From: Candidatus Heimdallarchaeota archaeon
Lineage (GTDB): Archaea; Asgardarchaeota; Heimdallarchaeia; JABLTI01
Direction of reading: 5' to 3'
Assembly: GCA_023128635.1 (NCBI GenBank)
Contig: JAGMDP010000122.1
Span: forward strand, 1-24,315
Length of the DNA: 24,315 nucleotides
Made by a program: the position numbers and the translations under genes. The notes beneath the pieces were generated by a model. It had not been told where the DNA came from and made no database searches. It worked only from the letters and a program-made list of their open reading frames with translations. Positions 1,429-11,918 of the stretch are shown in pieces. Within the stretch, counting starts at the first letter, position 1. The number at the start of each line of letters is the position of its first letter.

Positions 1429-1600
1429 TTCTTCTTTCCCACCATTAATTGATGAATAAGGTGTTGACTCGTTTTTAATCTTTGACAAACTTATTGTTTT
1501 ATAGATTAAAAATTTTCACGTCTTTTTTCTAAAGATGTTAAAATGGGAATACTTTTTATCTATGTCTTTGAATTAAATCATAAGGTTTTAAGTTGAGTTA

Positions 1601-1655: not shown

Positions 1656-2729
1656 ATGTCTTTACGTCCAACCTACAGAGCAATAGGTATTGATTTAGGT
1701 ACATCAACCATTAAGCTTTCATGTGCTACGCATCTTAAGAAAATTCCTTCAATTGTAGGAAACCCACTTGAAGGTTGGAGAGGATTCAGTGGAGATTCTT
1801 CTTTGGAAAAAAACCTCGTTATTAGTGATGGGACAAGAAGCCTCTATGTTGGGGAATTAGCACGATTACAAAGTGAAATTAAACGTGAAATCGCTAGTGA
1901 AGGAAAAGTGAAAAGCATTGATGATGCAGTGCTAGCGATAAAAGCAGTTTTAGCTTTAATTACTGAGAAGAATTATGATGAAATCATAATGGCAACTGGT
2001 GTTCCAGTAGCTTCTTCTAAAAAAGAAATGGTAAAACTGGCAAAGGGATTGAAGGGTGAACTAGATATCAATGTTGAAAACGAAGCAACTGGAGAAAAAA
2101 TAAAACGCTTGCTATCAATTAAGCATTGCATTGTTATGCCTGAGCCTTTTGGTACTTATTATCATACCTTGAAAACCCAGGGAGAATCAAGAGCTGTAGA
2201 TGCTATTGTAATTGATGTGGGCCATGGATCAACTGATATTTTAACACTTTATGAGGGTAGAGTGATGCGGCAAGCTTCTGGAAGTTTAGAAGAAGCTGCA
2301 GATACATTAACCAACAGAATTGCACAAGAATTACAAAATCAAACTGGAAAAATAGTTAGACCCTTTGACCTTATGACTTCCCTTTCACAAGGAAAGGATG
2401 TCTTAACTATTGCAGGTGAAAGATGGGATATTCTAAGTATGAAAGAATATCATATCGAAATTATTGCTGATGTAATTCTTGATGAAGTTAATAGATTAAT
2501 AGGAACCTTACCACCAGATGCTATTATTGAGAAGGTTATTCTCTGTGGTGGGGGAATACATATATTTGGTGATAGATTAAAACTAGGTTTTGAACAAGCA
2601 GGATTAGCAGAACATCCTGAAATGCTGATATTACCTGAAAATCCGGTGATGTCAAACGCAATGGGTTTTGAATTATTTGCCCGAAGATTCATATCAGGCT
2701 TAGGAGATGATGGATGCAATGAGCTCTAA
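1656..2729 (+). CDS. ParM/Alp-type actin-like ATPase
   Basis: This is a filament-forming actin-fold ATPase, most like the ParM/Alp and Ta0583 group. The 357 residues carry the phosphate-1 motif GIDLGTSTIK (Asp13, Lys20), a YVGELARLQS segment (64-73) typical of the N-terminal domain of actin-like segregation proteins, the phosphate-2 motif IDVGHGSTD (186-194), and the adenosine-contacting CGGG (307-310). Length fits ParM-like proteins and is shorter than eukaryotic actin. MreB and Hsp70 are less likely because the YxVGELA segment and the gene pairing point to ParM/Alp. The next gene, encoding a ribbon-helix-helix protein, overlaps its 3' end by about 10-23 bases, implying translational coupling. 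In plasmids this order is parM-parR. Identity as an actin-like ATPase is strong; a role in DNA segregation is inferred. Confidence 0.88.
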   Translation: MSLRPTYRAIGIDLGTSTIKLSCATHLKKIPSIVGNPLEGWRGFSGDSSLEKNLVISDGTRSLYVGELARLQSEIKREIASEGKVKSIDDAVLAIKAVLALITEKNYDEIIMATGVPVASSKKEMVKLAKGLKGELDINVENEATGEKIKRLLSIKHCIVMPEPFGTYYHTLKTQGESRAVDAIVIDVGHGSTDILTLYEGRVMRQASGSLEEAADTLTNRIAQELQNQTGKIVRPFDLMTSLSQGKDVLTIAGERWDILSMKEYHIEIIADVILDEVNRLIGTLPPDAIIEKVILCGGGIHIFGDRLKLGFEQAGLAEHPEMLILPENPVMSNAMGFELFARRFISGLGDDGCNEL

Positions 2730-3393
2730 GAAACCACCAGAAAAGAAAACAGGAAGTAAGAGGACTAAAACTAAGCCTAAGTCTAGTGCTAGGAAGAAAA
2801 CTGAAAAATCAAAAAAACCAGCTCGAAAAGAAGGCAAAGTGACCCATGATGATCCTAATAAGGGAAAACGAAGAAGCTTAATCTCAGCCTTAAAGAGAGG
2901 AATTTCCACTAAAGGTGATAGGCCTGCATCGAAGGATCCTATGAATATTGTAATTACACTTAGTCCTGCTAAGCATGCAGATATTATTGAATACATTGAA
3001 GAAACAGTCCCTGCCGGTGGTAGAGCCGAATGGGTTCGTGACTCAATTAGACTGAAAATGAGAATCGAACGTGGTGTTTATGGTTTAAACACCTCAGGAC
3101 AAGATGAAACGCAAAAAGGAACAGATGAAACCCTTCAAACCGTTTTTGGACAATTCGCTGAAGTTATGACGAAAGTCATGTCAGATCTAAAATCAGAGCA
3201 ACCAACAACAAGACCAGTTCAAGCAGCTTCTGATACGGAACGAACAAGACCTCCCCCACGTGAAAGAGTAGATCGAGGTGGTCCTCCTCAGCTAAAGAAA
3301 GTTGAGATTAAGGATGAAAAGCTATTGGAAGAACTGAAACCGGATAGACCATCCTTAGATGATGCTATTGGTGCCATTGTTATAGTTGAATAA
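2707..3393 (+). CDS. Basic ribbon-helix-helix protein, ParR-like candidate
   Basis: Residues 1-75 are Lys/Arg/Ser/Thr-rich and probably disordered. Residues 80-123 fit a ribbon-helix-helix fold: a strand (IVITLSP), a first helix (KHADIIEYIEET), a Gly-rich turn, and a second helix beginning RAEWVRDSIR. A short helical segment (about 140-162), a proline/arginine-rich linker and an acidic tail follow. RHH proteins dimerise and bind DNA through the paired strands. ParR of type II plasmid partition is of this class and uses its C-terminus to cap ParM filaments. The gene overlaps the actin-like gene. Several ATGs are possible (2707, 2710, 2719), and the TAGGAG at 2701-2706 does not settle the choice. 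I see the fold and the linkage; ParR function is inferred. A chromosome-bound adaptor or repressor is also possible. Confidence 0.7.
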   Translation: MMDAMSSKKPPEKKTGSKRTKTKPKSSARKKTEKSKKPARKEGKVTHDDPNKGKRRSLISALKRGISTKGDRPASKDPMNIVITLSPAKHADIIEYIEETVPAGGRAEWVRDSIRLKMRIERGVYGLNTSGQDETQKGTDETLQTVFGQFAEVMTKVMSDLKSEQPTTRPVQAASDTERTRPPPRERVDRGGPPQLKKVEIKDEKLLEELKPDRPSLDDAIGAIVIVE

Positions 3394-3411: not shown

Positions 3412-4527
3412 ATGAATATTCTCTACAAAATACCTCTTGAAGCAAAAGATCTTACTCAGTTTCTAGAAGAAGAAAAGAATTTCCTAATAGGGTTCCTAAA
3501 ATTATTGGAAGAAGTAGATACAAGTGGGCTAAGTAAGAAAAATACAGACATTATTTCTCAGTTGAAAGACATACTTTTGGCAGAAGTTGATAAAATATTT
3601 CCCTCAAAGAATCCTCAAAATCAAATTCAAGCTCTACTCTCTTTAGCAAGAAATCTGGCAAAATCCTTTAGCAAGGCAAAAATAGAAGATCTTGGAATTG
3701 CTAATAGATGGGTTTTACTTACTGATGGTTATCTTGGTAGCTTTGTAGAAAAAGATTATGAGGTTGCTATATTACTTTATTTAATTTCAGCAATTTATCA
3801 AACTCGTGCTCTTGCACATGTTCAAACAAGTTCACAGTATCGTTACTATCATATCTCATCTTTGTCTGCATTGAAAGGAGCAATTTTGTTTATGGAGAGT
3901 ATAGCTCCGCAAGAAGAACATTATTCGTATCCGTTTTACAATTTACTCCTCCTAAGAAAATTGGAGGTTGAAGCTGAAGTCACTAAATCTGAAGCTTTTA
4001 TTGCTCGTAAACAAGGTGATTTCAATCGTGCATCTAAGCTTTTTGCAGGAGCAGCTTCATTTCGGTTTTCCATGATGAGTTATGATTTGCCAAGCGAATC
4101 TGATAATAGGGTGAAGATTTATGCGTCCACAGAATTAGGAATGGCTTGTTTCTATATTGCAGTTGGACACTCAAATCTTAATGAATCCCAACAAGCTTAC
4201 TCGTATCTATTAAAAGCAAAAAGTTACTTTGAAAATGCAGCGAAACTTTCAGAGGATAATACCGAACTCTTAGAAGCTGCAAATAAGCGATTAGAATTAG
4301 TTAATCCTTACATAAATAGAATTCAAGATACGATTGAAACCGAAGATGTAAGAATCGAAGATATTGCTGACCCGCAACCATTAATGATTCATCCTGATCC
4401 TGAACCACTCTTTACTCCGAATGATAAAACCGAAGGACCACTTAGAATTTGTTCCAATTGTGTTAAAAAAGTAGTTTGGGCTGATGTTTGCTCAGAATGT
4501 GGGGAAAGTATTATCCCATTTGAGTAA
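3412..4527 (+). CDS. Helical repeat-like protein with C-terminal zinc ribbon
   Basis: I do not recognise a named family. The 371-residue product is almost entirely helical up to about residue 310. Segments such as EAFIARKQGDFNRASKLFAGAA and QAYSYLLKAKSYFENAAKLS resemble TPR or MIT-like helical hairpins. A proline-rich acidic linker follows (about 318-342), and then a zinc ribbon with Cys347, Cys350, Cys360 and Cys363. There is no signal peptide or membrane segment. Translation starts at ATG with a GAGG Shine-Dalgarno seven bases upstream. The gene follows the RHH gene by 18 bases, so it very likely belongs to the same transcript as the actin-like pair. It may be a scaffold that links the filament system to another partner; this is a guess from context. 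Confidence 0.62.
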   Translation: MNILYKIPLEAKDLTQFLEEEKNFLIGFLKLLEEVDTSGLSKKNTDIISQLKDILLAEVDKIFPSKNPQNQIQALLSLARNLAKSFSKAKIEDLGIANRWVLLTDGYLGSFVEKDYEVAILLYLISAIYQTRALAHVQTSSQYRYYHISSLSALKGAILFMESIAPQEEHYSYPFYNLLLLRKLEVEAEVTKSEAFIARKQGDFNRASKLFAGAASFRFSMMSYDLPSESDNRVKIYASTELGMACFYIAVGHSNLNESQQAYSYLLKAKSYFENAAKLSEDNTELLEAANKRLELVNPYINRIQDTIETEDVRIEDIADPQPLMIHPDPEPLFTPNDKTEGPLRICSNCVKKVVWADVCSECGESIIPFE

Positions 4528-4594: not shown

Positions 4595-5326
4595 GTGTTG
4601 ATTCACAAATATCGAACCACAAGGTCTCTTAAAATTTGTTACTGGGGACCGAGTATGGCTGGGAAAACATTCACTGTAACTGCAATAAAAGTAATGAAGT
4701 CTTTAGAGAATCCGAAAAGTGTTTTCGATTTTGTAACAGTTCAAGATCAGGAAACTGGAAAAACAGTTTTCTTTGACCAAGCTGTTTTTGGTTTTGGATC
4801 AAAACCTGAATCGGACGAATTTTTATTTAAAATTCATGTTTTTACCACAGCAGGACAAAGAAGACTAAAAGAAACAAGGAAAGTTGTTCTGCAAGGCATT
4901 CATGGGTTAGTGCTTGTTATCGATGCTGATTTGGATAATTGGGATGAAAACATTTGGTCTTTAAGAGAGCTCAAAGAGCTAAAAGGGGAGGACATCAAAG
5001 AACAAAAAATCCCGTATACTATTTTTGTAAACAAACAAGATCTTCCTTGGGGTACAAAAATCTCACATAGACATATCAAACAACTATTTGATGCAGCAGA
5101 TGTTTCAGATCTTTTTCCCGATTTAGAAGGAAATATATTCAGTGGTTCTTGCCAACAAGCCAGAGCTGATTTGAAAAATCTTCTAAATACAACCCCAAAA
5201 GATGTTATTCTTAGTTCTAAAGGTCATTTTAAGAGAGAATTTAGACCTGATTCATTTAGTCCTTTGATGAAATCAATAGAAGACATTGTAAAACAGATCC
5301 TTAAGAAGGAGTTTCCCGGCAACTAA
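4595..5326 (+). CDS. MglA-like small GTPase
   Basis: This is a Ras-like GTPase of the MglA/Arf-like branch, 243 residues. Visible motifs are G1 GPSMAGKT (18-25), a switch region around the threonine in DFVTVQD, G3 TTAGQ (84-88), G4 NKQD (146-149), and a possible G5 SGSC (173-176). In G3 the usual Asp of DxxGQ is replaced by Thr, as in MglA proteins (TVPGQ), which separates it from Ras and Rab. A C-terminal extension of about 45 residues follows the core, with no lipidation cysteine. The start is GTG, with a purine-rich GGAATGG at 4581-4587. It lies 67 bases after the helical zinc-ribbon gene, in the same orientation. MglA GTPases set cell polarity in bacteria, so its position next to an actin-like gene is suggestive. 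No MglB/roadblock activator is visible here. Confidence 0.82.
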   Translation: MLIHKYRTTRSLKICYWGPSMAGKTFTVTAIKVMKSLENPKSVFDFVTVQDQETGKTVFFDQAVFGFGSKPESDEFLFKIHVFTTAGQRRLKETRKVVLQGIHGLVLVIDADLDNWDENIWSLRELKELKGEDIKEQKIPYTIFVNKQDLPWGTKISHRHIKQLFDAADVSDLFPDLEGNIFSGSCQQARADLKNLLNTTPKDVILSSKGHFKREFRPDSFSPLMKSIEDIVKQILKKEFPGN

Positions 5327-10267: not shown

Positions 10268-10681
10268 GTGATAAATCTGAAGGGTAAGCATGTTGAATTC
10301 TCCACTAATCAACTAAAACGAAACGAAAAACAAACTAACGACAAGAAAAGCAAAGTAGTGGAAACGATCTCTGGTGGATTTGTTGAATTTAACACAACAG
10401 TTAGTAAAAAAGACACTCTGAAACAAACGACATTAATATCTGGATCAAATATAGAAACTAATATTTCTAATATCGGATCCTGGTCATGGGTAGCAAAAAA
10501 ACAAACAGTATGCATGATATGTAAGCTTCCTTTAAGATCAACTCAAACCGTTTCTCGATGTCCCATGTGTTTTTCACTATTCCATGCAGACCATATATTT
10601 GAATGGTTAAAAGTGAAAGGAAAATGTCCTGTTTGTTTACAAAATCTCCGACCAGGCGGAACAGAAGAAGTGAAACTTTAA
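10268..10681 (+). CDS. RING-like zinc-binding protein
   Basis: Residues 1-78 are polar, Thr/Ser/Lys-rich and probably disordered. Residues 82-123 hold eight potential zinc ligands in four pairs: Cys82/Cys85, Cys98/Cys101, His106/His109 and Cys120/Cys123. The segment FHADHIFEWLKVKGKCPVC closely follows the FHxxHIxxWL...CPxC pattern of RING-H2 ubiquitin ligases, but the second pair is Cys-x2-Cys where classical RING has Cys-x-His. RING E3 ligases recruit E2-ubiquitin, and archaeal ubiquitin-like systems with small RING proteins are known. No E1, E2, ubiquitin or Rpn11 gene is present here. The only upstream start in frame is GTG at 10268, and the true N-terminus is uncertain. The coiled-coil gene follows by 38 bases and is probably co-transcribed. 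RING-like fold likely; ligase activity unproven. Confidence 0.65.
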   Translation: MINLKGKHVEFSTNQLKRNEKQTNDKKSKVVETISGGFVEFNTTVSKKDTLKQTTLISGSNIETNISNIGSWSWVAKKQTVCMICKLPLRSTQTVSRCPMCFSLFHADHIFEWLKVKGKCPVCLQNLRPGGTEEVKL

Positions 10682-11495: not shown

Positions 11496-11918
11496 TTATG
11501 GAATTTCAAGAACTGAAATGTCGACCTTTGACACACCGTCAATATCTGCCAATTCTTCTTTGATTGTCTCCATGTTTACATTCTTAAACTCTTTTGAATC
11601 AATATATCCTTCATAGACACAGCTCTCTTGAGTAAAACACAGACCTGTAGAATAAAGAGTTTTTATACCCGCCTTCATAAATAATGAGCCCATCTTCTTC
11701 AAAAAGTCTGGACTAAGTTTTCCGATTTCAATGCCCACTTTGTAAACTTTTTCACTTGTAGTGGGGATTATTCTTATTATTTTTGTACTGGGTGCGAGTA
11801 TCATTACCGCATAATTTCCTTCTTCAGGTTTTAATGCGTCTAGAAAAGTTTGGGGTAATTGGATAGGTTGCCCTACTTCAAGCTTGCACATCTTTGCTAC
11901 TGTTACTTCGGTTGTCAT
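11496..11918 (-). CDS. SpoVT/AbrB-like and ACT-like two-domain protein
   Basis: The 140-residue product appears to have two parts. Residues about 8-52 (LEVGQPIQLPQTFLDALKP, then RIIP) follow the swapped-hairpin pattern of SpoVT/AbrB DNA-binding domains, which often begin with a strand and then I-x-L-P and a short helix. Residues about 58-138 (VYKVGIEIGKLSPDFLKKMG, then LYSTGLC, VYEGYID and VSKVDISVLEI) fit a beta-alpha-beta-beta-alpha-beta ACT-type domain, which usually binds amino acids or other small ligands. Together they suggest a ligand-responsive regulator. The ATG start has a strong Shine-Dalgarno (AAGGAGAG, complement of 11925-11932). A TATA box lies on the complement of 11980-11987, abutted by a tandem repeat. 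Family assignment comes from pattern only and needs a profile search. Confidence 0.65.
   Translation of the reverse strand: MTTEVTVAKMCKLEVGQPIQLPQTFLDALKPEEGNYAVMILAPSTKIIRIIPTTSEKVYKVGIEIGKLSPDFLKKMGSLFMKAGIKTLYSTGLCFTQESCVYEGYIDSKEFKNVNMETIKEELADIDGVSKVDISVLEIP

Follow-up and report, generated by a model that had tools for sequence, protein, structure and literature searches.

A chromosomal ParM-like actin and its tail-bearing partner point to a modular filament system in Asgard archaea

A 24,315-nucleotide stretch of the genome of a Candidatus Heimdallarchaeota archaeon (GenBank assembly GCA_023128635.1, contig JAGMDP010000122.1), analyzed as a whole and referred to here as the window, encodes a ParM-like actin followed by an overlapping gene for a probable ribbon-helix-helix (RHH) protein. 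The two genes are conserved as a pair throughout the genus, and the C-terminal tail of the RHH protein recurs in other proteins, some of them encoded beside actin genes; strong adaptors bearing this tail were found only in genomes that encode the actin. What is new here is that this tail, which comprises the final 15 residues of the protein, is reused on otherwise unrelated Asgard proteins. Literature searches found no published description of either the shared tail or a ParM-like actin paired with an RHH protein in Asgard archaea. The explanation we favor, with moderate confidence, is a chromosomal ParM-ParR-like filament module in which the adaptor binds the filament through its C-terminal tail and its head determines the cargo. 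Taken together, the observations point to a modular, previously unstudied Asgard filament system.

Results

The preliminary description of this DNA assigned the first gene to the ParM-type actins, and the assignment was borne out. The protein scores above the Pfam cut-offs for ALP_N (48.4 bits) and MreB-like_C (51.7 bits); PF17989 and PF21522, both of whose cut-offs are exceeded, are the pair by which Ta0583-type archaeal actins are recognized. An AlphaFold2 model of the actin (pLDDT 86, pTM 0.87) has as its nearest folds cParM1 at the top, CorM, and Ta0583, the Thermoplasma actin homologue for which we know of no adaptor. By sequence, the best solved relative is Dh-cParM1. A match to the PHROG 691 partition protein (1.6e-38) places the actin in the ParM class that characterizes ParMRC loci, as does the fold, but the NCBIfam ParM model gives 62 bits, well below its cut-off of 417. 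An MreB identity was rejected, as PF06723 is absent from the Pfam matches of the window actin to E 1; a precomputed PF06723 match is present on some of its homologues. We also rejected a eukaryote-like (Loki) actin identity, for which the PF00022 score is 29.4 bits, barely above the cut-off of 27. The window actin is ParM/Ta0583/CorM-like, and it is neither MreB nor a eukaryote-like actin. Five of the seven genus genomes searched encode a distinct eukaryote-like actin that scores 443–449 bits, in agreement with the earlier proposal that the system is separate from eukaryote-like actin. In G001 and G004–G007, an actin with these scores is found together with an ARP-like protein (99–110 bits), alongside the ParM-like actins.

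Table 1 Features of the actin locus in the window
Feature	Position	Strand	Details
Promoter-like element, BRE/TATA-like by eye, 5′ of actin	1535..1559	+	Alignment of 10 upstream regions
Actin ATPase, ParM/Ta0583/CorM-like, paralogue A of three in genus	1656..2729	+	357 aa
RHH adaptor ORF (RHH assignment probable)	2707..3393	+	228 aa; overlaps actin ORF by 23 nt
Lysine-rich N-terminal arm, residues 1–51	2707..2859	+	Net +12, 35% K+R
Conserved basic helix, residues 52–68	2860..2910	+	Pattern in 77/79 homologues; predicted helix 52–65
Probable RHH domain, residues 79–122	2941..3072	+	AlphaFold2 helices, hhalign; predicted DNA-facing N80, V82, T84
Amphipathic helix, residues 136–162	3112..3192	+	Predicted helix; possible dimer/oligomer contact
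First part of shared tail, GGPPQLKKVE	3277..3306	+	Aligned with other tail adaptors
Shared C-terminal tail RPSLDDAIGAIVIVE (last 15 residues), predicted actin-binding motif	3346..3390	+	Tail hhalign, profile
Helical protein, C-terminal zinc-ribbon-like cysteines	3412..4527	+	18 nt after RHH gene; 9/9 loci
Long-form MglA-like small GTPase, two genes after RHH gene	4595..5326	+	9/9 genus loci

The overlap reported for the two ORFs is present (Table 1). Many homologues of the second protein start at residue 5 (MSSKK...), so that the true start may lie at 2719 and the overlap would then be 11 nt. Overlapping copies of the pair occur in all nine genus genomes, with predicted starts that give an overlap of ~20 nt; its presence in all nine argues that the pairing is not due to chance. 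Public records with adjoining locus tags agree (ACFFDW_00445/00440 and GF308_13890/13885). Conservation of the pair, a point raised in the preliminary description, holds within the genus and ends there: the RHH protein is confined to 9 of the 227 genomes of the phylum, whereas the actin is found in 52. Three actin matches are present in seven of the nine genus genomes; one incomplete genome has two, and another has four, two of which are pieces. A quick tree recovered the paralogue clades A, B, and C with SH-aLRT values of 100, 99, and 100, respectively, and the union of the three with a value of only 83. No RHH partner lies just 3′ of actin at any of the 14 informative loci (of 17) for paralogues B or C, or at any of the 21 loci of families f4 and f5.

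The genes that flank the pair are chromosomal and syntenic across the genus, as the chromosomal location first suggested for the locus would predict. A helicase gene follows in nine of nine genus loci (a contig end cuts two of them), and hypB lies 5′ of the pair in eight, the remaining locus being at a contig end. This synteny differs from the carriage on plasmids or mobile elements that characterizes ParMRC. Searches with the RHH protein returned only two chance-level matches (E 3) in plasmids and none in viral contigs. The helical protein encoded immediately after the RHH gene has no Pfam match above cut-off. Elsewhere in the window, a 140-residue protein (11496–11918, minus strand) is 98–100% identical among the seven genus loci that include its gene; identity is 85–97% for the actin and 80–93% for L10e. 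The product of 10268–10681 (plus strand) is RING-finger-like, with a PF13639 score of 26.9 bits against a cut-off of 27.3.

As first proposed, the second protein of the pair is probably an RHH protein, for which the evidence is moderate. No Pfam or NCBIfam model recognizes it, and structural searches with its predicted model returned nothing convincing. The AlphaFold2 monomer places helices at residues 87–100 and 106–122 in RHH spacing, with pLDDT values of 73–85 for blocks within residues 81–120; no structure is assigned where the RHH strand would fall, confidence is low outside this core, and the model as a whole is weak (mean pLDDT 57). When residues 76–124 were compared by hhalign with 29 RHH_1 (PF01402) proteins of kindred genomes, the alignment stayed in register across 45 columns, with a P value of 0.026 and a score of 11.6, which exceeds the maximum of 8.2 obtained in 100 column shuffles. 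The profile of the full-length protein scored 10.0 against the RHH_1 proteins. The second RHH helix (helix B) is conserved in 75 of 79 homologues.

The regions around this core have distinct properties. The N-terminus is basic, as had been noted, and its charge resides in the arm listed in Table 1. The DNA-facing residues of the strand, as predicted from the usual RHH pattern, are N-V-T in 71 of 80 homologues and are uncharged. These residues, together with the arm's net charge of +12, would be compatible with DNA binding. The hydrophobic moment of the basic helix is unexceptional (16.9% of shuffles are equally high), and that of residues 140–157 in the amphipathic helix of Table 1 is 0.52, a value reached by 0.1% of shuffles. 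The C-terminus had been described as an acidic tail; the last 20 residues do carry a net charge of −3, although they consist mainly of a conserved hydrophobic motif.

A role in DNA segregation, which the preliminary description read from the gene order, should not be assumed. No parC-like repeats were detected at positions 1489–1655 or upstream of the actin gene in orthologues; a centromere at a distance from the locus may exist. The conserved element found upstream of the actin gene could instead suggest that the RHH protein chiefly regulates its own operon and plays no part at the filament, and RHH proteins are often repressors. However, the element resembles a core promoter devoid of operator repeats, and autoregulation leaves unexplained both the distribution of the C-terminal tail and its presence on 3′ partners of actin in other families. 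We regard this explanation as very improbable.

The C-terminal motif lies at the very end of the protein in 73 of the 79 homologues; among the other six are three that terminate in H, two short fragments, and one whose end diverges. In families f14, f15, f16, and f19, the tail recurs in a helical protein of ~400 residues encoded just 3′ of actin. This protein bears a weak resemblance to TPR proteins (E 0.007 for the best TPR model, below cut-off) and ends, for example, in RPKLDDMLDSIIVSE, compared with RPSLDDAIGAIVIVE in the window; it is otherwise unrelated to the RHH protein. An hhalign comparison of the C-terminal ends gave an E value of 5.5e-7 and a score of 40.3, whereas 200 shuffles reached a maximum of 19.4. 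Removal of the last 20 columns abolished the similarity (28 of 200 shuffles were equally high). The loci fetched contain 4158 open frames (at least 60 residues, all six frames, overlapping loci and duplicates included), of which only those of these actin partners end in the motif. Because a neighbor encoded 3′ of this actin shares the tail despite being otherwise unrelated, the tail is likely to be the actin-binding part of these adaptors, a reading that also draws on the analogy with ParR. The earlier proposal of a C-terminus that contacts the filament gains support from this shared tail. At L091, L093, L094, L095, L096, and L110, two actin genes of this family lie head-to-head. Where the contig extends far enough, a separate partner gene follows each of them; in the five cases listed, no tail motif is present in the partner of the divergent actin.

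We searched the 227 phylum genomes with a tail profile of 35 positions built from 13 sequences. At E ≤ 1e-5, it returned 26 matches in 17 genomes, all of which encode actin; 12 of the matches are rows of the profile itself and the other 14 are not. They comprise the RHH protein and a second protein of ~240 residues, each in all nine genus genomes, and the ~400-residue adaptors of f14, f15, f16, f19 (two genomes), and f20 (three genomes). A profile of the ~400-residue adaptor matches in 12 of the 227 genomes, including those of f20 and one genus (g1) genome with tail-bearing proteins; it also matches a protein of the actin-less genome G043 (E 3.4e-4), outside the tail. In f20, at L183 and L188, the gene next to that of the tail adaptor encodes a protein with a RING-like pattern of cysteines (by eye). 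At E values up to 0.1, the tail profile gave weaker matches in six f4 genomes, in f5, and in five actin-less genomes (G041, G057, G114, G166, and G183). Three of these five were inspected: those in G057 and G166 resemble ABC-transporter ATPases, and in that of G114 the motif lies near the start of the protein. The profile is insensitive to distant tails, detecting those of f4 in 6 of 23 genomes and only at E 0.002–0.1, so its failure to match elsewhere is no proof of absence.

The second tail-bearing protein of the genus (L217–L225) has an RHH-like head with an acidic strand, a coiled-coil-like middle, and a tail that lies 4–7 residues from the end in the five proteins listed. Its central strand position is E or D in nine of nine sequences (register by eye). 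Its gene was not found on the actin loci fetched, and the protein may serve paralogue B or C as an adaptor. The weak f4 matches led to a protein family present in all 23 f4 genomes; a search with this family gave weak matches in G001, G003, G023, G165, and the actin-less G119 as well. The f4 tail, [DE]RPxL[DE]x[VM]LD[SG][VMI]L, occurs in 23 of 23 proteins and is followed by 16–28 further residues. Its E value of about 1e-5 is biased because the f4 proteins were selected by tail similarity, a bias that does not extend to their conservation or their RHH-like heads. In profile alignments of the f4 head, 38 columns matched RHH_1 proteins (E 0.00075) and 21 columns, which cover the second helix only, matched the second genus protein (E 0.0018); 0 of 100 shuffles scored as high in either case. 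The corresponding strand position of the f4 adaptor is E in all 20 of the 23 sequences that are readable. With an acidic strand in both proteins, these heads need not bind DNA; they probably serve dimerization or another partner. That heads of other kinds, certain of them with an acidic strand, bear this tail is a further reason why DNA segregation cannot be assumed. A weaker form of the tail, DRPDLEEVLDDILISG, ends a further coiled-coil-like protein of ~305 residues that is encoded in some f4 genomes (L210, L213, and L215).

The distribution of the tail follows that of the actin. When strong tail adaptors were defined by a tail-profile match at E ≤ 1e-5 or an f4-family match at E ≤ 1e-40, they were found in 40 of the 52 genomes with the actin and in none of the 175 without it; genome counts of this kind are not independent, and the independent units are seven families. 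Twelve actin genomes have no strong tail adaptor: G023 and G165, which have weak tail-like ends; G105, G106, and G158, whose contigs are, by our reading, cut; and G163 and G167–G172. It could be argued that the tail binds some other conserved partner and that its link to actin is indirect, since tail proteins of g1, f4, and f20 are encoded away from actin. Such an arrangement appears unlikely, given that the tail adaptor lies directly 3′ of actin in g1 and four other families and that no strong adaptor was found in the 175 actin-less genomes.

The GTPase encoded two genes after the RHH gene has MglA as its best solved relative (E 1e-15). Its place in the gene cluster is one reason to consider that the system might be a repurposed cytoskeleton, in which the adaptor would tie the filament to the membrane or to a polarity complex and thereby control cell shape or polarity, comparable to cyanobacterial CorM-CorR. 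CorR has a membrane role. CorM is among the three nearest folds to the window actin, and the acidic RHH-like and helical heads of other tail adaptors would fit such a function. So would the conserved basic helix of the RHH protein (Table 1), although this helix is not exceptionally amphipathic and the lysine-rich arm and uncharged strand suit DNA. By our reading, 19 of 21 f4 genomes have a gene for a long-form MglA-like GTPase 5′ of actin, no more than 1.6 kb away; in the other two, the contig ends first. However, this GTPase is not orthologous to that of g1, an opposite-strand gene separates it from actin in four of the five f4 loci listed with both, and no GTPase match was found near paralogues B and C (10 loci), on the f5 contig, or within four genes of actin at 20 other Asgard loci. 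Because the GTPases are not orthologous, other loci have none, and several gene families were compared, the link to polarity is suggestive at most. We consider a repurposed cytoskeleton possible but rather doubtful. At L069–L075 and in the window, non-orthologous long-form MglA-like GTPases are encoded near actin in two families.

Discussion

The window locus resembles plasmid ParMRC in that an actin gene is followed by the gene for a probable RHH adaptor in one operon, and the adaptor has a conserved, flexible C-terminal tail (PMC5016525 for ParR). As described there, the RHH at the N-terminus of ParR is followed by a helical cap and then by a disordered, strongly conserved C-terminal tail, which at the growing end binds ParM in a hydrophobic pocket. 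The window protein shows a like order of RHH, amphipathic helix, flexible linker, and conserved tail; the tail conservation meant here is that within its own family and not a comparison with ParR tails. Differences from ParMRC include the chromosomal setting, the lack of parC-like repeats at the locus, the number of components in the genus (three actins, two tail adaptors), and the reuse of the tail on other heads. Plasmid ParMs are less than 27% identical to the window actin among the matches listed (15 of 43 records). The window locus would work like ParM-ParR; with two defining features not seen, namely parC beside the operon and carriage on a plasmid, it is not a ParMRC partition locus.

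Other relatives share some of these features. Bacterial chromosomal ParMs with ParR-like partners, whose role is unknown, are described in part of PMC12270681 and are similar to the window pair in both respects. They differ in being bacterial, and a tail shared across unrelated heads is not mentioned in that part of the paper; Cb-cParMR, moreover, has a functional parC according to the same part, whereas none was seen at the window locus. CorM-CorR of Anabaena (PDB 9rmi) belongs to a different domain of life. Salactin is, like the window actin, archaeal, and is compared with it here by description rather than by sequence; part of PMC10746226 places it nearest to MamK and proposes a possible role in DNA partitioning.

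For the favored ParM-ParR-like module, we envision the following mechanism. The actin would polymerize with nucleotide, as its family and fold suggest, and the RHH protein would dimerize through its RHH domain. Its flexible, conserved tail would grip the actin, probably at the filament end, a step suggested by the reuse of the tail beside actin and by the analogy with ParR. The least certain steps concern the cargo. DNA is the likeliest cargo of the window protein judging from its sequence, and would most likely be held by the lysine-rich arm and the RHH strand; the filament may thus push, pull, or anchor part of the nucleoid. Elsewhere in Asgard archaea, the tail would serve as a constant filament plug and the head, whether RHH-like with an acidic strand or helical and weakly TPR-like, would select the cargo.

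Beyond the preliminary description, the analysis adds the extra actin paralogues, the MglA-like GTPase, and the shared tail. We think it somewhat probable that these proteins reflect a widespread chromosomal actin system of Asgard archaea with an adaptor code, in which one conserved C-terminal actin-binding tail is placed on interchangeable heads (DNA-competent RHH, acidic RHH-like, and helical TPR-like) so that one filament family serves both DNA and non-DNA cargoes beside eukaryote-like actin. The module provides material for immediate tests in vitro, namely one well-defined actin, a short tail peptide, and several heads. The system bears on a basic question about archaea close to the eukaryotic root, namely by what means their chromosomes are moved or anchored. 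Such a chromosomal ParMR-like system, if real, would also show that archaea domesticated partition-type actins, turning them into a modular cytoskeleton that exists next to eukaryote-like actin.
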